64,000 bases of DNA. It comes from Diprion similis (Eukaryota > Arthropoda > Insecta > Hymenoptera > Diprionidae). The notes beneath the pieces were generated by a model. The model was not told the origin of the DNA. It worked only from the letters and a program-made list of their open reading frames with translations, and did no database searches. Shown here piece after piece: positions 84 to 64,000 of the stretch. The stretch is taken from the NCBI RefSeq assembly GCF_021155765.1, contig NC_060106.1:13418031-13482030 (forward strand), written 5' to 3'. Both the position numbers and the translations under genes were made by a program. Within the stretch, counting starts at the first letter, position 1. Each line of letters opens with the position of its first letter.

Positions 84-3000
84 TGTTGGTGGTAAGAATG
101 TTGACACATAAAGTGAACTGAAGGAAGTTCTAGCTGGTCATGACACGCACTGCAGCGGGATCCTTGAAAAATGATTGTGCTATTTTTTATAGATTCTATT
201 TGTTCTCTTAATTTCTGTGTATCTGCTTGATATTTTTTCGTTAGGTCTGTGTCAGCCTGTGTCTGTTCATTTTCAGTGCGCAGCACATTATTCAAGTAAC
301 TTCGTACATCACCCAGTGTACAGGACATTGATGTTGATAACGCATCCACCACCATCAATGGTGACAAAAGTTTCTCTTTTGCTACAAAAATATGTTTAAA
401 ATCTTATAACATGCCTTCAAGAATACTATATGAAACTTTCAAAATTGGCACTTATGCTTTACCGATATATGTGAGAATGTCAGCTAGAAGCTTCGATGAT
501 GCAGTTTTGTTCCGCGCTACACTCCACAATGCGTGAACCCACAAATTAGGATCCTGATGGCCAAACCGTTTACAGGTTGCCAAAATTTGTTCATTATCTC
601 CTTCGCGTAAGTGATACTGCAGAATCTCTTGGTACCTGTCATTTGAAAATTGAAAGTAAATAATATTATGCATGGTTTCACCACGAGAAATTATATTCAG
701 AGAAGAGAAATAACAAATCCGTTGAAGTAATTGTGTGACTTACAATTTTCTTTCTTCATACAGAAAGAGTATACCTCGTCGAAAGTTGTGCTGTTGGCAT
801 AGTATTAATATTTGATCTTTATCATAACTGGCTTCCGAACTTTGCAACAATCTGACAACTTTTTGTTCATACTGGAGTTTTGCTACCTCACTACCTAAGG
901 CTGACCACACGTGCAGATAATGTTCTACTAAGGTATTATACACTAACGTACTCCATCTGCAATAGAACAAAAACTCATGCCGTTCACATTATGTACTATA
1001 TGTAATTGCATGTATTCTATTATTAAGGAAATACTTAAAAAAAAACATGGCAAGGTTATTTTAAAATTTTATACCTACTTGCTTTCACATTTTACTAGAT
1101 GCTCTAAAAATTCAACCAGACGTTCAGAGTTGCCAAGAAACAAATGTATGAATTCTTCGGGATTAGCTTTTTCGATACTCTGTTCAGCAGATCCATCCAA
1201 CACGGCCTAAAAAACAATTTTTTATGAAAAATGATTCGACCTCTTGGCAAACAGTAAAATCAAACTCATACCTGGTCGACGAGAGGTTTATTTGCAGGTC
1301 TATAATTAGTACACAATCTTTTTAAAAATTGGGTCGCCTCATTTGGTACATTTTCAATTAATACATTTCCGTATTTTTTCATATTTGACTCGGCCTGAAA
1401 TTATAATGCAAAATTGAGTATGGCAAGAACTGGTGTATGTTAGGTAATTGATGATGTTAAGCATTCACCTCTTCGAAATCTAAAGTTGCAATGTATTCCA
1501 AAGCCCCTTTATACTCAGCTTTATCTTCTATTTGAATTCGCAAATACCATTCGTGTTTGCCATGTTTTGTAGCCAAGAGTAACGCATCTTCCGATGATGC
1601 CTGGCGACAAACTTTTATGGCTATTTCGACATCGAAATCTACTTCGCGGTCCTTCGTCTAAAAATTTGAACAATGTAAGTTATCAATTTAAAAGGTATAT
1701 ATGAAAGAATTATAATTTATATAGTAAGAATACGATATCATTGATTTCTCACGTACCATGATAAATTCTTTTAATTTGTCAGTATGGTTCAATTTTGTGT
1801 AACAGTTTAACAATAAAGTAGTGTGGTCTCCAGTAGCTTGACCTTGTTTATGCAGTGCTTGAAGATATGTCGTTAAATTATCAATGTGTTGCGAATCCAA
1901 GAATTTTCGAATCACATAAGATGGTTCAAGCTTTCCAATTGTTTTTATATATTGCTCTATGGCCCCATTATGATCACCTTTCGAATACAAATGATCTCCA
2001 TACTGGCGGAATATATCTACAAGTCCCTCCGCATCATATTGTTGACTTTTTGCTATTCTATAAAATAAGGTATGTGATGTAATTCAAGATTTTTTGAAAC
2101 TGAAGGTATCATTAATGGACACGTGATTAGTGCTGAAAAAAAAACGATACTTCACCTTATTGAAACATCATAAAGATTTTTTTTGAATAATAATGCCAGC
2201 TTTGATTGCAAATCCTTTTCATCTAAGTGATACAGCTTACTATTACCGCTCAAAATGAAGAAGCCACCCCACTCTGATAAGACAGCTTGAACTGACAACA
2301 TTGGTGCGGAAAATACAATAACCTTGTTCTGAATATCAAGAACCGTGATTGTGTGCTTATCTGCACCTGGAGGTATAGGTTCTATAGTACTGGAAACATT
2401 AGCAAGAACAATTATTTTTCATTATAGCAAAGAAAAAGCTTAGTTCTACGAAGTATTAACAAACTATTCATCATACTTAGGTTTTGCAGAAATAGTTGTG
2501 GTTCTGGGAACATTGGCAGCCTCCTTGGCTATTATCACTAGATAACTTCGAAACCATTCTAGCATGATTTTTTGTCCATCCACCGCATAACATGGACCTC
2601 TTCCATCAGGTGTGTAACAGTACACAGCCTGAATAAAAATAATTCAAGATTATTACCAGGTATGGTATCTAAAATCATTCATACTCTTTAATTTTGCTTT
2701 ACGACCGAAATGACGCCCAGGATTTTAACAAGTGGTTTGCAATTTTACAAGTTGTAGAATTTGAAGCAATAAAACTCAAGTAAAGTCAAACATGTATGTA
2801 TAACAGTAATCTAGTAATGTAGAATTACTCATACAGTTGCTACAGCTAGAAAGGATTTTTGTTTTAATACTTATGACTACACAAAAAAATGATATAGATT
2901 TTGATAAATATCTTACATCATTGCGCCCAATCATGAAGTGACTGCCTTGGGATGAGTCAGCCAAAACGCTGCACTTTCTTGAGCATCCCATATTATCCAA

Positions 3001-4123
3001 ACTAGTTTTATACTCTTTATCCTTGACAGTGATATTGTAGAGAAATACACTAGTTGTTGTTGCAACAAACATATGGGTTTGCTTGCCTGTCGATCGTATA
3101 GCAAGACCAGTTACGGGTGTATTACTATCCTTCAGTATTCGTATTTTATTTTTCCTTTCCCGTGTCAGGTCACCTCTGTGAAAGGAATATTATGATTGTG
3201 TGAGAATAATCTTAAATCAGCCGAAGGTTGCTCTAGATATTAACACCCAAATTAATGTGACCTGTAGAGCATAATGGATCCATCCCCGAAACCAACAGCC
3301 ATCAGAGTGAGCCCGCTATGAACACATAATGCACTAGCTGGAACTGCACGGTACCCGGGAATGGCTCTGCTGATTCTAACACAAGTCGGATTACCATGTT
3401 TGTCCAGCTTGGATAGATTCCAAACTTTTATTGTCGGATTACAACCAGGCTCATCTTCCTAAACAACAAAAATTTACATTGCCTCAGGTCGTGTTTTGAG
3501 GGAAAAAGATAAGTAGGTGTAGAGCGAAAGATGAAATAGCCTCACTGACAAGCATTTATTTACTGTAAATGATACTTACGCCAATTGTGAACAAGAAGGT
3601 GGAATGTTGTACTTGTTGGGCTAAGGTCAACGTTATTTCATAGGCACGAAATGTTGTGATCACATATTTTCTATTCACCAAATGCACGTTACCTATGTTA
3701 TCACCAAAGACAAGGTCTCCATTTCCGCTGGTTGCTGCTGTGACTTGAGCCTCCTAAGGAACAAAGAGTATAAAAAATGTTTTATTTGTAACAAAATATC
3801 ACATGCAGGATAAACGAGAGGTTCCTATGAAAACAAACCTATCAGAAAGAGACAAATAGAAACGTCGCATCTTAAACATTCTACAATTTATCTTATGTCA
3901 CTGCAGACAGAATTTTTCACAAGACAAAAAATAAGCTTACCCCAAGAGCTTCAGAAATCTTTCCACTGTCCACTTCCTTTTTCAAATCAAAGAAATTGAA
4001 ACGTCTCCACTAAAAACATATTCTAATTGAATAAAGTATCAAATGTGAGGTTAGAATCATTAACAGAGGATCAAATATTTTGGTTACTGAAATTAAAAGA
4101 AATATCACCTCCAGGAACGCCAT
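84..4123 (-). CDS. Vps11: VPS11, core subunit of HOPS/CORVET tethering complexes (3' end outside window)
   Basis: Core subunit of the HOPS and CORVET complexes, which tether endosomes, lysosomes and autophagosomes before SNARE fusion. Fourteen coding exons join in phase: 4123-4109, 4009-3941, 3753-3580, 3458-3262, 3175-2917, 2628-2477, 2389-2156, 2057-1757, 1657-1469, 1394-1272, 1206-1079, 956-744, 635-463, 381-84. They encode about 841 residues. The start reads MAFLE then WRRFNFFDLKKEV, the usual VPS11 N-terminus; a beta-propeller half follows (exons 2-7), then the alpha-solenoid with DHNGAIEQYIKTIGKLEPSY. The last visible exon has a coiled-coil stretch and then the start of the C-terminal RING (CSACHDQLELPSVHFMCQHS), where the window cuts it; the remaining zinc ligands must lie in an exon to the left. 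The product is identified with high certainty; individual exon edges are inferred from GT-AG sites and phase. Confidence 0.95.
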
Positions 4124-8645: not shown

Positions 8646-26261
<17,616 letters not shown>

Positions 26262-56900: not shown

Positions 56901-58077
56901 TACCCAAGTTATAGTTCATAAACTGATGTATAAGTATATTACAGACCATAAACTCCCTTTCCAATATGAAATTTGGAATAATATACTCCAACATTGATCA
57001 TCTTCTAACTTTAAAGATAGTTTTCAGTTCATATCTATTATAATTAGGAAATGCTGAGTAAACAATTTCTTACGTTAATTGAACACAAACCTTTTTTCAC
57101 AGCAATACGGGAAAGCGGTTAATGGCCAAGTGTAGGCTGTTGTATCAAGAAAACGAAGAATTGGGGCGGATGATTGCAAGCGGCCGAATCGCCAAGCTGG
57201 AAGGTGAACTTGCATTGCAGAAAAGCTTTAGCGAAGAAGTCAAAAAGTCTCAATCTGGTAACTACACTTTTTTTTTACATTGCAGTCTCAAAACGAGGCT
57301 GCTTATGAATTATGAAATAGTTTTCTTAACAAAAATGAAAAATATAATGTTACAGAACTGGATGAATTTTTACAAGACTTGGACGAGGATGTTGAAGGTA
57401 TGCAAAGTACCATTTACTTTCTGCAGCAAGAACTCCGCAAGGCACGTGAATCTGTGACGTTACTTCAGCAAGAAAATATTGCACTGAAATCCAGTTCGGG
57501 TGAGAGCAACCTGACAAACGGCATGTCTCCCCATACTCCGCCAATAAAGAAAGAAGAAGTAGACGAAAGTGCTACAGCTCTTGAAGTAAAAACCGTGAAA
57601 CCAGAAGAGAGTGACATGTGCAAAGGTGCTAGGACTCCGCCATTACCACCCGAGGGTTCGCCTCGGAGTGACAGAGGAAGTGTTGAAAAGTCTGAAAGGA
57701 CAGAACGTAGGCCTAGTCAATCAGATCTGCAAATTGACGAGAGTTCCAGTGATTCGGCAGCCCTCATTATAAAAGTTGAAAACGAGGAATTAAGTGACAG
57801 GGATGAAGAGGAACAGGATAATCGAAATAGCAAAAGGACTTTGAGGACTAAAAGTAATAACAAAGGTAGCGGTAAGTCAAACGGGGAAGAGGTGACGACA
57901 AGGACAACCAGGGGTAGGGATAAAGCTAAAAGGGAAAAAAGTGGGGCAGGCAGTGATGACGAGAGGACACATAAGAAAAAACGAAGAGAAAGTGTTCTTT
58001 CTCTTGATTATAATGAAGCTGACGATGACGCGTTGGTGCTAACTAATGGTGAGACGCTTCAGAGTGATCCTGAATGA
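53945..58077 (+). CDS. fl(2)d: fl(2)d / WTAP, regulatory subunit of the m6A RNA methyltransferase complex
   Basis: Nuclear adaptor that holds METTL3-METTL14 with the other writer subunits, directing N6-methyladenosine to mRNA. In flies it is also needed for sex-specific Sxl splicing. Five exons join in phase: 53945-54182, 56161-56285, 56646-56824, 57103-57257, 57356-58077, giving 472 residues. The N-terminus is Ser/Pro/Gly-rich, followed by the WTAP core: IKLSEQQLDSSTRDELASKW, then a long coiled coil with LRDSEDKYRQQYAEASHREK, LIQRLRQELITTKAKLEDTQ, TGKRLMAKCRLLYQENEELG and DLDEDVEGMQSTIYFLQQEL. The C-terminal 200 residues are low-complexity, acidic and basic by turns, with KKKRRE as a likely nuclear localisation signal. 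Intron 1 is 1978 bp; reading through it adds only a few residues before a stop, which could give a short isoform of 84 residues. Identification is firm. Confidence 0.96.
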
Positions 58078-60425
58078 AAAATCTATTGCTGGTGGAAATT
58101 CCGAAACTAAAGTTCTAAAATTTAGGTAGGCAACGATTCTTGCAGCATATTGATTTCTGGTTGACTGGTGCTGATTTGTTTTTATTTGCCTTTTCCCTAA
58201 TTTAAACAAAAGGACGATTTTTTATTCCTTGGCGTGATGAAATTTCGAAGCGAGAATCGTATGCTGTCTTTACTGTGTGCAGACTACTACAATAGGTGGC
58301 ATTAATTTTGTAAAGAGAAATACATGCATGTTTCTCACAATCAACACAGTAGTTCTACACGTTACACGTTGTAAAGTATGCCTTGTAGCATTTCGATGTT
58401 TTTTCCTACTGCTCCATCAGGTACATTGTTGAAACTGAAATATGTTGATTAAATTTTTGTTCTTCGTTTTTGTAGCTATTGTTTTCGAATTTATATCCAT
58501 GTATGTACTTCAGCACCTAATGTCATCTATTTATAGTGACTGCAACGAAATAGCTTTCGGATAGTTACTCATGAAGACCTTGAACACATGTATAATATAT
58601 AAATACAATAATTATATATATGCAAAGTTATATTAAATACCGAATCATCAAATGTACTCTTGGTTATCATGTATTATAAGATTGGGATTCATAATTCGTT
58701 TGGAGTACAGGCGTATAACTGACATAATAAGTCCCATAAAAAATGACTAATCAAGGTGTGAAACTTGTTTTTAAATATAGTTGCACGTCACAAATCGTAA
58801 TTTTCAAATTTGTAATATTTTTCCGACTAAAACGGTTGTACAGAGTTTTTTCATTGCTATTTTATAATATTATTACCTGCATATTAAGCATTTGTTTTAC
58901 ATTATCCTACCCCGCCTCTGGCCCAGAAATATTTACTTTTAACATAGTAGTTTTGCCTATCGTGAAATATATATTTTCAAAAATGTTTACGTCTCATTAT
59001 TTACAATTCTTTGAAAAATAATTATAACTGAATTTGGTGTAAGGGTACACATATGTGTTGAATTCTGACCGATATAAGGCCACTGGCACTCGTATCATCT
59101 GCTGCCATCCATTCAACCTGCGCAGCAAGCAACACATTCATACCAAAATGTATGTGCACAAAACAAGTAGCGGTTTTAGTGACTGCCAGAACTTATTATG
59201 ATTGCTTCTGGATATCGCGGTTCCTGTCAGAATTTATTGTAGCAACACCTACATATGCATCCGAGAGAAAATGTAGAATAGCCGAGGCTGAGCGGCCGAA
59301 CTATCGGTCGTATATTTGTGATCGGTTAGCAATTTTGAGGTTACGTTGTTGCAATGACTTTACAAGTCATCCGTCATCGATCAGTCAACAATAAAAGTCG
59401 TTCCAAGTTTTCTTAAATCACTACATCTTTTATTCGAGACCTGTTGAGTGACAAAATTTGTATCATTTACATAACCTTCGCATGCCGGCTTGCGTGTGTT
59501 GAAGACGATAAAACTCGCGCATGCGCAGTTAGTCGCTCAGCTTGCTAACTTTCACCATTTCTTCTGTATTTGACAAATGAATATAAATCAAGATAAACTG
59601 ATTTTATAAAAGCGTGAATAATTTTGACTCAAAGTAGAGCGTTGACTTTTGAATTTTGTTACAGTTGAGGTTATTAGATAACGTCGTTCATATTTAGGTG
59701 GTAATTTAAAGTCAAACATGATTGTCGCGCCAGTCCCGCCAGGCTTTGGCCGATCTCTGTGGAGGGAAAACTGTAATGTAACCTTACCAGTTTCTGTACT
59801 CGCTTTCAAGCTGCCAAAAGTAATCTCATAAGAAAATATCGTCGCTATTTATTACGGTTTACTGTCACCAAACACGTTCAAGTAAGTTCATTTTACACGT
59901 TGCGATGTGTCACGAATTTTCATTATTCGAATTTCTAATGTTTTGTTTTGACGGTAAAAATATAATGATCATAATACTTTACACGATTAGCATGGGTAAC
60001 CTTGGTAACCGCAGATAACCGCGAACTTACTTGTTTACGAGTGACGTATGCTCAAAAGCAACAAGTTACAAAATCTTATTCGGTTAACAAGACAAATTGA
60101 GAGATACGAATCGCAACAGGGTTTTTTCTCATGCTAGCACTGTCAACACGAAATGCAAAAATATATCCTCTTCTAGGAATTTTATTTTTATTACAGTCAA
60201 ACTAAAAATTGGAACGTAACTTGAATCTAGCAACTTCGCAGGTTACCTAAAACAGCATACAAGCATGAGGGTAGTTTTTTATAAAAACAGTGGAGAATTG
60301 GCGGTATTACATTTTTATTTTTTATTAAAAAAAAGTATTCACACATCGATTGTAGGCTTAGGAACTAACGTGGGTTATCAATATATTTGTATTGAATTTT
60401 CTGGTGATCAGTACATAACAGTATT
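58078..60425. other. Convergent spacer between fl(2)d and ZNHIT1
   Basis: It holds the fl(2)d 3' UTR on the left and ZNHIT1 3' sequence on the right. In the middle lie a perfect NRF1-type palindrome GCGCATGCGC (59517-59526), a 38-codon plus frame near 59718, and a 73-codon minus frame (59588-59809). An AATAAA-containing stretch lies near 59388. No protein family was recognised. A small non-coding transcript or an orphan promoter is possible. Confidence 0.5.
59517..59526. promoter_or_regulatory. NRF1/Ewg-type palindrome GCGCATGCGC
   Basis: Perfect match to the nuclear respiratory factor 1 consensus, a motif typical of CpG promoters. It stands about 900 bp from the nearest annotated coding end and points to no known start site. 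Confidence 0.4.
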
Positions 60426-61113
60426 CTATGCCGTCCATTTCAAACACCTGGTATCTAAATGGGTTCCTAAACATTTGATACAACAGTATCTGGCGCCACA
60501 AGGAATGCAAGTGTAATTGCTAGGAAATCCACAAACTGCGCAAAAGTGTCTATCTGGAAATTGAGAAGGTTGAGATTGGGCTGACATATAATTAGGTGGA
60601 CTTGGATTGTAGTTGTGATCTTCTTCCACCAATTGAGAGAATGTTTTGCGAAATCTTTGCTTGTAATATTCTGCCGATTTGGTCTTCTTTTTTCGCCCGA
60701 CTCCTCTGCTATCAAGTGTTTCTTGAAATTTCGGTACTTTCTTGCTCATTACTGGAAATAAATAACACACAAGAACTGTTGTAATATCTTCGCACAGCTT
60801 TTTTACCTTCTTTACATTATTAAGTTATACTGAATAAACTTGTTTAAAATAACTTCTAAATATAGTGCTTTATATGAAAACTATAAATTGAAACCACTTT
60901 GTGTAATAGAGGGTTAAAAACATTTCAAAAAAGATAGTTCGTAACTAATGGCAATGTAATACCCAAATCAGCGTGTGGATCATCATGAAAGTTATCCTCC
61001 TCAAGAGCCTCCAGAGCTTTCCTTTGTCTTCGTTTCCTTGCGGCATCATCCAAAACTCTTTTCTGGTTCGCATCTTTTATTCTGCCCGATTCGCGGGCTG
61101 CCATTTTTGTCAT
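60426..61113 (-). CDS. Znhit1: ZNHIT1, zinc-finger HIT subunit of the SRCAP/SWR1 remodelling complex
   Basis: Small subunit (yeast Vps71/Swc6) of the complex that exchanges H2A for H2A.Z. Two exons join in phase: 61113-60963 and 60751-60426, giving 158 residues. The first ATG (61113) gives MTKMAARESGRIKD; the second ATG (61104, context AAAATGG) is better placed for initiation and would give 155 residues. The N-terminal helix RVLDDAARKRRQRKALEALE and DNFHDDPHADL match the family. The C-terminal HIT zinc finger is complete: CAVCGFPSNYTCIPCGARYC followed by CIKCLGTHLDTRCLKW. The start lies only 59 bp beyond the GTF2H5 stop codon on the same strand, with no poly(A) signal between, so co-transcription is possible. 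Confidence 0.95.
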
Positions 61114-61172
61114 TCGAATTTTACTCTCTATGTAAAGTATATCCGTGTAGCAGTTTGTTTACCAAGTTTATC

Positions 61173-62511
61173 TTACAATCCCTTATCTGCTAGAGGGAAT
61201 GAGATCTGATCCATAAGGTCGTCAACTTTTGTTTGCAATGTTTCCAAAATATCTGCAGATATGAACAAGTGACGCTCATCAAGATCTTGAATGATGAATT
61301 TCTTTCCTAGGGCGAATGTTTCATCCAGATGCAGTAAAAACTGTTTCATAGCCGCATCGCTTTTGCAGTGAAGAAAAAGGAAGAGTGTTAAACAAAACTC
61401 AATTCATATCAGTATTTTTTTCACATAAGAAACGAAATGTCTAAACGAAAAGGAGTGTCGGCAGATGAGAAACGTGTTAGGATGCTTCAGCTATTTTATG
61501 AGAAAAGGGAATTCTTCCAACTTAAGGATTTGGAGAAAATTGCTCCCAAAGAGAAAGGTATCGTGGCTCAATCTGTTAAAGATGTGGTACAGGCTTTGGT
61601 TGACGACGGACTGATTGATACTGACAAAATTGGAACTTCAATCTATTTTTGGGCATTTCCCGGGTAACGTATCACAAAATATATATAATCTAATCATATA
61701 AAGTATTCGATTTTATTGCATATTTCAAGCAAACAACACTTTGAATCTATCGATGAACTGGCTTTTCACTTTGTAGAAAAAATATAAAATTGACTGAAAA
61801 GAACATTGAGGAGGCGAATCAAAAAATATTTGAGGCTGAAATGAAGATTGCTAAAATTAGTGAAGAAATTCTCAGAGAAAAAGTAATTCATTCCAATTAA
61901 TAGCAAAGATATACATGGCAATTGCGGATTTATGGGAACACATTATAGTTGATATTGTTTTATACCTAGGTTGAAAAAGAGGACTCAATAGAGAGACAAA
62001 AATTAATTCAAGAGGTGACAAAGTTGCAACGACGAGAAACCAAACTTCAAAAAGAACTTGCAGAGCACATGGCAAATGACCCCGAAGAAGTTGCAGAGTT
62101 GACTAAAAAAGCAGAGGTAAATGTATTTAAAATAATGGATCAATATATTAAACCCATCTTTGTTACCATGAGATTTAAAGTAACACTCTAATAAACGATT
62201 GCTACTAATAGTTTCAATTATAACAATGATTAAATGTTCAAACTACTTTTTGCAGAAATATAAAGATGGAACAAATGCGTGGACGGATAATATATTTGCA
62301 ATACAGAGCTGGTGCAACAAGAAATTTGACATATCTAAGACAGAACTAAACAAACAATTTAATATCGCCGAAGATTTAGATTACATAGAATAAGGTTATG
62401 TCGACTATGCTCTGAGAATCGTATGAAATACGTGCTTCTGAAAGCTTGGTGGGATTGATATATACTCATTACGTACCATTCAACTAAAATTCCTTTCATA
62501 ACATTCACCAT
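61173..62511 (-). CDS. Tfb5: GTF2H5/TFB5 (p8/TTDA), smallest TFIIH subunit, split by a large intron
   Basis: Stabilises TFIIH and stimulates XPB in nucleotide-excision repair and transcription initiation. Two exons: 62511-62477 ([11 protein letters not shown] plus TG) and 61359-61173, joined as TG|C to restore the ECDAAMKQF junction known from the family (human ECDPAMKQF). Total 73 residues against 71 in human. The second exon reads [20 protein letters not shown], then [10 protein letters not shown] and [16 protein letters not shown] before TAA. The start exon has only 35 nt and a consensus donor GTACGT. The 1117-bp intron contains the complete MND1 gene on the opposite strand. Confidence is high because the short exon matches both the family N-terminus and the required phase. 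Confidence 0.93.
61437..62393 (+). CDS. Mnd1: MND1, meiotic recombination factor (partner of HOP2)
   Basis: With HOP2 it promotes DMC1/RAD51 strand invasion between homologues at meiosis. Four exons join in phase: 61437-61663, 61777-61882, 61970-62116, 62256-62393, giving 205 residues, the same length as human MND1. The N-terminal winged-helix segment reads [20 protein letters not shown] and [20 protein letters not shown], with SIYFWAFPG closing the domain. A long coiled coil ([31 protein letters not shown]) follows, and a conserved C-terminal cap with [20 protein letters not shown]. The whole gene sits within the GTF2H5 intron, antisense; its stop is 84 bp from GTF2H5 exon 1, with no AATAAA between, so the two transcripts probably overlap. 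Confidence 0.96.
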
Positions 62512-63312
62512 TGTGCTTTCTGTTTATTCCTTATGCTTTTTCAACATCACACGACTTTATCCGTGAGGACCGTGAGTTGTTTAAAGTTGTAAGAATACCA
62601 CGGCGAATAGTGAACGACGAGATTACATATATGTGCCTCTACTAAGGCTAGATTTTCATTCGCGTCACATTCATGCGACGGCAACTTGACACGGCAGCGC
62701 CGCGCCGTCGACGGAGAAAACCATAGTAAAAAGACGCTCATGAGAATAGGCACCGCCGATGCAACACAGTGTGAAAAAATAGAGAAAATGAAGAAGCGAG
62801 ATGAAGTAGCTATTCGGATTGCGCGTAATCGATTTCTCGCGCAAAATTACCTCGATATAGTGCATCAAAGGATTGATTTGAGTATTTTTTAAAATTAGCC
62901 AAATATCCACTGAAAAATCTGTAGAACTTATATTAACCTTCCTCTGTTTGCGGTTTTCAGAGCTTGGATACTATTTGTCTCAGAATCGTTTTGCAGGGCT
63001 CTTTGCAGGAAAACTTCCACCAATTGAACCCTCAGGAATGATTGAATATATGTTCGCTCAACGTATTTATTCGACTGGAAGTCGCCAGAAAATTTCAATT
63101 GATGCCTAACGCCGCGTCCAACGGCAATTTTTCGAATATCTAACCGCGTTGTGCGATAGGTAGTTTAGTTCGCATCACGTCTCTGACTAGTCGAGAACTG
63201 TTTCAGAGCGCAGCGCGGTGTCAGTCGCTTCCGAGCAGTCGTAGAGAAAGTACGCAAGTCGTACGCCGAGAATTCGGATCGTCATCATGTTCAGTCTTTA
63301 ACTATCCGGGAT
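62512..63312. promoter_or_regulatory. GTF2H5 upstream region and promoter of a right-hand plus-strand transcript
   Basis: The left part contains a GC-rich block (62675-62715) with inverted GACGGC/GCCGTC arms and is the likely GTF2H5 promoter. The right part (about 63170-63290) has CpG-rich sequence with an initiator-like TCAGTC and looks like a start region for plus-strand transcription. No gene with known domains was found; a 69-codon plus frame (62686-62892, TTG start) is judged chance. Confidence 0.4.
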
Positions 63313-63458
63313 ATGGCCAATCACCGATATCTTGTGGTTAAAAAACGGCTGTGTAACGTTATTCGATCAGTGTATTTCCAAGAAATTTACATGAGTGGCA
63401 GCGTATGGCTCGTAAAAGAACCGAGTTACTGGAATGAAAACAGCAGGGGACATCGAAG
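63313..63458 (+). CDS. Candidate first exon of an unidentified plus-strand gene
   Basis: An ATG at 63313 in strong context (G at -3, G at +4) opens a 48-codon frame, starting MANHRYLVVKKRLCNV and ending WNENSRGHR, that runs into a consensus donor (CGAAG then GTGAGT) at 63459. I recognise no family. A second ATG at 63434 in another frame gives MKTAGDIE to the same donor. The exon may instead be untranslated. The rest of the gene lies beyond the right edge. Confidence 0.3.
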
Positions 63459-64000
63459 GTGAGTTGTGTATTATTAATTTTCATTCTTTGGTGCAACTTC
63501 AGCTATAAGCGATTTCGATTCTCGACTCTCTGCGTCGGGTGTCGTTTGTTTTTGTTTGGGTGGCTGATTTTCGGTATGTGCGCAGTTGCATTGTTAGCAA
63601 GTTTAACTCAGTCAGTTTAGGCAGCCAGCTACAATACAAAAAATGTAAATGGGCTTGGAATCAAGTGTAATTATTACGCTGCATAGTCACGAGCGTATTA
63701 GAAGAACCTAGTTACTGAAATAAAAACATTAGGGGACATCGAAGGTGAGTTTCGTGTTGCAAATTTTCATTCTTTGGTGCAACTTCAGCCCTAAGCGATG
63801 TCGACTCTCTGTTTTGTGTATCGTTTGTTATTGTTTGTGCGGCTGATTTTTGGTAAGTTCAACTTAGTCAGTTTAGGCAGCCAGCTAGCTACTAAACAAA
63901 AAGTGGGAATGAGCTTGGAGACGAGTGTAATTATTTCGCTGCATAGTCACGAGTGTTTTGTGACAAGAATCCTTGCAGAAGGTGACTTTCGTGTGAGTTG
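63416..64000 (+). repeat. Tandem duplication, unit about 286 bp, two full copies and the start of a third
   Basis: Copy 1 begins at 63416 and copy 2 at 63702; both start AAGAACC, share GGGGACATCGAAGGTGAGTT, then CATTCTTTGGTGCAACTTCA, CAGTTTAGGCAGCCAGCTA and CGCTGCATAGTCACGAG, with scattered substitutions and small indels. A degenerate third copy seems to begin near 63965 (AAGAATCC...GAAGGTGACTTTCGTG) and leaves the window. Each copy carries the splice donor (63459, 63745, and a weaker 63982). Confidence 0.85.

Follow-up and report, generated by a model that had tools for sequence, protein, structure and literature searches.

Gene models at the locus

The window, meaning the whole 64,000-nucleotide stretch of Diprion similis DNA that was analysed, contains a 2.2-kb locus in which GTF2H5 (TFB5) and ZNHIT1 follow one another on the minus strand, while MND1 occupies the GTF2H5 intron on the opposite strand. 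The features of this three-gene unit and its borders are as follows.

62512..63412, minus strand: CpG-rich stretch (65 of 188 C's followed by G) preceding GTF2H5 exon 1, on the presumed promoter side
62477..62511, minus strand: GTF2H5/TFB5 exon 1, 35 nt, with 11 complete codons plus two bases of Cys codon 12, which is split by the intron; GT donor
61360..62476, minus strand: GTF2H5 intron, 1117 bp, GT..AG, with donor GTACGT and an acceptor ending in GCAAAAG; MND1 lies inside on the opposite strand
61173..61359, minus strand: GTF2H5 exon 2 including the stop codon (spliced frame, Tfb5 profile)
61114..61172, minus strand: intercistronic spacer, 59 nt, with no ATG and no AATAAA or ATTAAA; variant hexamers GATAAA at 61172 and AGTAAA at 61125
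60963..61113, minus strand: ZNHIT1 exon 1 (spliced model, match to a solved ZNHIT1 chain), with AATAAA at 61081
60426..60751, minus strand: ZNHIT1 exon 2, with the HIT zinc finger and the stop codon (spliced model, Pfam)
60314..60326, minus strand: a pair of AATAAA poly(A) signals, beginning at 60326 and 60319, about 100 nt past the ZNHIT1 stop
61437..61663, plus strand: MND1 exon 1 (spliced model, Pfam)
61777..61882, plus strand: MND1 exon 2 (spliced model)
61970..62116, plus strand: MND1 exon 3 (spliced model)
62256..62393, plus strand: MND1 exon 4 including the stop codon (spliced model); no AATAAA or ATTAAA on the plus strand until 63719
60114..62550, no strand: CpG-depleted block over the entire three-gene unit (change-point fit, matched by 0 of 100 permutations)

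The GTF2H5 model, rebuilt by splicing, is an intact frame of 73 aa in which residues 1-67 form a Tfb5 domain (Pfam, E=1.7e-27), and it shares 62% identity with a solved-structure chain named GTF2H5, which we take to be the human protein. Because this alignment begins at residue 1, the 12-codon first exon is correct. A first exon located elsewhere was ruled out, as the codons of 62511-62477 match GTF2H5 from residue 1 and join the second exon in frame. The acceptor at 61359 scores low (-0.15 on a rough, hand-set matrix), and the ATG context fits 4 of the 5 positions of the start consensus CAaaAUGg, counted by eye against what is a Drosophila consensus, quoted in the accessible text of PMC2276209. 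The locus holds the single Tfb5-profile match across the 269-Mb, 60-contig genome, and the only match of the 2.2-kb locus DNA to that genome is the locus itself.

The spliced ZNHIT1 frame is likewise intact, encoding 158 aa and interrupted by an intron of 211 bp, with a zf-HIT domain at residues 118-145 (Pfam, E=1.7e-09). Its residues 7-157 match a solved chain named ZNHIT1 (E=1.8e-50, 55% identity), presumably also human. ZNHIT1 is assumed here to be a SRCAP/SWR1 subunit, a role taken in part from a title cited in a paper. Compared by eye with the same Drosophila consensus, the first ATG, at 61113, agrees poorly (1 of 5 positions), and the next in-frame ATG, at 61104-61102, agrees well (4 of 5). 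Judged from the letters, translation more likely starts at this second ATG than at 61113, in which case the spacer would measure 68 nt and the ATG at 61113 would count as one extra upstream AUG. A GTF2H5-ZNHIT1 fusion protein produced through readthrough is ruled out, as the two frames differ (281 nt from ATG to ATG).

The nested gene, MND1, comprises four coding exons and encodes an intact protein of 205 aa with an N-terminal winged helix (Mnd1 HTH, E=4.3e-29) and a C-terminal LZ3wCH domain (E=5.2e-20) in Pfam. Among solved structures, a chain named Mnd1 (4y66, E=1.4e-27) is the only one it matches with E no higher than 0.001. MND1 is the partner of HOP2, and a HOP2-family (TBPIP) match lies elsewhere in the genome, on contig C1. 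The whole MND1 coding sequence (61437-62393) falls antisense within a single host intron (61360-62476), and 323 nt lie between the ATGs of ZNHIT1 and MND1. These models bear out the architecture of the original prediction: splicing, the Tfb5 domain and the residue-1 alignment show that it had the right coordinates for the 35-nt GTF2H5 first exon (62477-62511) and the 1117-bp intron; all four MND1 exons, with both MND1 domains, lie antisense in that intron; the GTF2H5 stop (61173) and the first ZNHIT1 ATG are 59 nt apart on the same strand; and the interval of about 320 bp between the MND1 and ZNHIT1 starts agrees with the measured one.

Several other features were recognised in the window. Two plus-strand copies, 81% alike and 286 bp apart from start to start, lie at 63413-63542 and 63699-63828; each has a donor-like end, GACATCGAAG followed by GTGAGT (by eye), and together they look like a duplicated first exon of a plus-strand gene arranged head-to-head with GTF2H5. 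A WTAP homologue, which we take to be fl(2)d, lies on the plus strand at 57083-58077, with a Pfam Wtap match (E=2.3e-22) in the frame 57083-57457 and a 253-aa open frame, 57316-58077, that overlaps this frame and then extends past it. On the minus strand, a kinesin gene, presumably of the kinesin-3 type, covers 11270-21862, with motor, Kinesin_assoc, FHA and DUF3694 domains spread over three open frames, and a VPS11 N-terminal propeller exon is found at 2776-3189. Scans of the window with Rfam (at gathering scores) and for tRNAs gave 0 matches.

Poly(A) signals and CpG content

The spacer between the two minus-strand frames contains neither AATAAA nor ATTAAA, and the earlier claim that no poly(A) signal separates them therefore holds for these hexamers, with the qualification that variants occur at 61172 and 61125 and that an AATAAA lies at 61081, inside ZNHIT1 exon 1 and 32 nt into the frame. 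Minus-strand hexamers are also present inside the GTF2H5 intron (AATAAA at 61717, ATTAAA at 62363). On the plus strand, the first AATAAA or ATTAAA after the MND1 stop is found only at 63719, beyond GTF2H5 exon 1, and a variant ACTAAA lies at 62483, within that exon. Because no canonical poly(A) signal occurs before 63719, the 3' end of the MND1 mRNA may overlap GTF2H5 exon 1 in antisense.

A three-segment change-point fit over the hand-chosen region 58500-63500 delimited the CpG-depleted block at 60114-62550, in which the fraction of C's followed by G is 0.137, against 0.225 to its left and 0.353 to its right (the log-likelihood gain is 17.6, or 16.1 when the fit is made on a coarse grid, where 100 permutations reach at most 13.8). 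Across 60300-62511, 52 of 361 C's are in CpG, compared with 65 of 188 upstream of GTF2H5, and the non-coding part of the unit taken separately gives 17/124 against the same 65/188 (p=4e-5). The left flank differs less from this non-coding part (65/289 vs 17/124, p=0.04). The GpC control shows little depletion (1.12 in the unit vs 1.22 and 1.19 in its flanks). For the window, the unit is not extreme in CpG, since 32% of window stretches of equal length are as low or lower. In the accessible text of PMC5960102, Trichogramma genes show a bimodal CpG depletion that marks gene-body methylation, and Nasonia and Apis have a similar pattern. According to the same text, Trichogramma methylation is enriched in exons, whereas exons in the present unit are no more CpG-depleted than its non-coding sequence (35/237 vs 17/124).

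At the scale of the window, CpG observed/expected per kb is very uneven, ranging from 0.47 to 1.66. Values are low over the first 22 kb and, through most of 22-48 kb, high (0.74 in 1-21800 and 1.31 in 22001-47000, with GpC values of 1.09 and 1.05), an unevenness also seen in insects whose gene bodies are methylated. The depletion over the kinesin-gene region stops at about 22 kb.

The interval between the ZNHIT1 and MND1 starts (61114-61436) has 8 of its 57 C's in CpG, which is indistinguishable from the rest of the unit (43/289, p=1.0) and lower than the region upstream of GTF2H5 (65/188, Fisher p=0.003). Because this interval resembles the unit and not the upstream region, the CpG pattern weakly favours, short of proof, one minus-strand promoter upstream of GTF2H5. 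As evidence on an internal promoter the comparison is weak, because the interval is not unusual against the window mean (P=0.25); in addition, just 20 of its 57 C's are non-coding, with 3 of these 20 in CpG. CpG depletion reflects long-term germline loss and is not a record of transcript starts, and a test of this kind would miss a short promoter inside a depleted gene body.

A probable bicistronic GTF2H5-ZNHIT1 transcription unit

The TFB5 frame comes first and the ZNHIT1 frame second on the same strand, separated by a short spacer of 59 nt, and the locus is probably an insect copy of the published TFB5-ZNHIT1 bicistronic transcription unit, with MND1 as a separate nested gene. The dicistronic GTF2H5-ZNHIT1 mRNA put forward in the original prediction is the best-supported reading, since it matches the published insect bicistron and agrees with the CpG block, but it is not novel, the TFB5-ZNHIT1 bicistron having been published for flies. 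Its primary source in Drosophila is reportedly the work of Herrera-Cruz et al. in 2012, to which a 2022 paper and a 2020 review both refer. In the accessible text of that 2022 paper, Drosophila Tfb5 and Dmp18 (ZNHIT1) are placed on a common bicistronic transcript, and according to the accessible text of the 2020 review all arthropods have the p8 bicistron; one citing passage leaves the partner subunit unnamed, and the title it cites names Swc6/p18Hamlet. The accessible part of PMC2276209 (2008) lists TFB5 as the 73-aa frame conserved upstream of CG31917 (Ka/Ks 0.00), and the most distant EST it gives with both frames is from Bombyx, while the accessible part of PMC2576456 yielded nothing on gene structure.

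The present locus shares with the Drosophila Tfb5 (Dmp8/p8)-Dmp18 (CG31917, ZNHIT1/Swc6/p18Hamlet) unit the same pair of genes in the same order, and the TFB5 frame has 73 aa in both. Unlike in the Drosophila bicistron, the TFB5 intron here hosts MND1. Moreover, whereas the Drosophila bicistron is taken from the literature, the single transcript at this locus is inferred, as are reinitiation and the antisense overlap.

According to the proposed mechanism, transcription of the minus strand would begin within the CpG-rich sequence upstream of 62511 and yield a single transcript, which would lose the introns of 1117 bp and 211 bp and terminate close to the two AATAAA at 60326/60319. Ordinary scanning from the first AUG would give TFB5, and reinitiation on the shared mRNA, once the 73-codon first frame has been translated and the AUG-free 59-nt spacer crossed, would give ZNHIT1. 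MND1 would be a separate plus-strand gene with its own start near GTF2H5 exon 2. Counting the TFB5 start, a ribosome scanning the spliced message would meet nine AUGs before that of ZNHIT1, all of them outside the spacer. Given this number and the good context of the first, it is judged unlikely that ZNHIT1 is reached by simple leaky scanning. A dicistron with so many upstream AUGs would need reinitiation or internal entry.

Searches with ZNHIT1 and TFB5 queries gave no confirmed relatives in viral contigs and found no insect relatives in the contig collections queried. A contig filed under a Nitrospinota bacterium MAG (WAIB01000042.1) encodes, at 88-345, the N-terminal half of ZNHIT1 (query residues 2-84), followed by an intron-like break (by eye), and is likely eukaryotic contamination of the bin. 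The 87 bp upstream of this match, which extend to the contig start, show by eye no TFB5 end and, at this length, tell little about linkage.

Alternative readings of the locus

ZNHIT1 could instead be transcribed from a promoter of its own, placed within GTF2H5 exon 2 or within the spacer and perhaps driving MND1 in the other direction, with the GTF2H5 mRNA ending in or just after the spacer. The AATAAA at 61081 could end such a separate GTF2H5 mRNA, MND1 must start nearby in any case, and translating the second frame of a dicistron would call for unusual initiation beyond nine AUGs. A scan for a few loose core-promoter patterns, uncorrected for chance matches, picked out two initiator-like sites on the minus strand (TCAKTY, at 61294 and 61202), a GAGAG at 61128 and, on the plus strand, a string resembling Motif 6 at 61412. 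However, 61114-61436 contains no TATA box and no DRE by pattern scan, its CpG content stays at the level of the unit and below that of the region upstream of GTF2H5, and Drosophila makes a bicistronic transcript (2022 paper, accessible text). A separate ZNHIT1 promoter is considered unlikely, and the earlier suggestion of one inside GTF2H5 coding sequence, divergent with MND1, finds no support in the CpG level, which is itself weak evidence.

A single promoter could also serve both genes through alternative splicing, in which GTF2H5 exon 1 would be joined to an acceptor in exon 2 or the spacer to yield a ZNHIT1 mRNA, a possibility compatible with the bicistronic unit favoured here. The exon-1 frame would then become an 11-codon upstream frame, which would make reinitiation easier, and joining to 61252, 61186 or 61127 does give 11 residues and then a stop in all three cases. 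The acceptor-like sites at 61252 (4.5) and 61186 (3.5) outscore the real acceptor at 61359 (-0.15) on the rough hand-set matrix. However, when the GTF2H5 frame was shuffled synonymously 2000 times, 24% of the shuffles reached an equal or higher best score and 6.7% had two such sites, whereas the best acceptor-like score of ZNHIT1 (4.39), for which no such splicing is proposed, was reached in just 1.8% of shuffles. Because the ZNHIT1 score is the rarer of the two, the acceptor-like score does not single out GTF2H5, and the sites in its exon 2 were rejected as evidence of alternative splicing, lying within chance in the GTF2H5 shuffles. This splicing route is accordingly held to be quite improbable.

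That the three genes are merely accidental neighbours, brought together by compactness with no common transcript or regulation, is very improbable: nesting is common, since in the accessible text of PMC3786989 about 6% of Drosophila genes are nested and frequently run antisense to their host, but the order and orientation of TFB5 and ZNHIT1 match the published bicistron. For MND1 alone, accidental proximity is likely.

The nested MND1 gene and possible meiotic regulation

MND1 within the TFB5 intron is the sole element of the locus not found in print, no published description of this nesting having been found among open-licence papers, while antisense nesting itself is common in insects. To our knowledge, MND1 is absent from D. 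melanogaster, and the nested gene is therefore not expected there. DMC1 is also absent from that species according to the accessible text of PMC10403939, which reports all core meiosis genes except DMC1 in two Microctonus wasps, MND1 expression in the ovaries of one of them, and the lack of DMC1 in most Hymenoptera assayed. In Nasonia, the accessible part of PMC6704150 lists DMC1, HOP2 and MND1, with comparable expression in testis and ovary. A similar arrangement is that of 2mit inside tim2, likewise a complete protein-coding gene on the opposite strand of a host intron, which is kept in honey bee and flies and not in four lepidopterans (PMC3786989, accessible text). Unlike tim2, the host of MND1 is the first cistron of a probable dicistron.

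A more elaborate scenario is an interlock kept by selection, in which meiotic transcription of MND1, running antisense through GTF2H5 exon 1, would tune the TFIIH and H2A.Z-exchange subunits in meiotic cells, and constitutive transcription of the dicistron would hold MND1 down elsewhere. Such an interlock is extremely doubtful. Loss of p8 arrests Drosophila male germ cells in meiosis (PMC5090060, accessible text), so strong silencing of TFB5 in meiotic cells would be costly. Shared meiotic regulation would take its most specific testable form in the predicted overlap, in antisense, between the MND1 3' end and GTF2H5 exon 1.

Collectively, the locus would provide a further instance, with exact coordinates, of the bicistronic pairing of a TFIIH subunit with an H2A.Z-exchange subunit reported for flies and arthropods. 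The compactness of the unit makes the translation of a second cellular cistron testable, and the nested MND1 lends itself well to examining possible mutual interference between a meiotic gene and its constitutive host.
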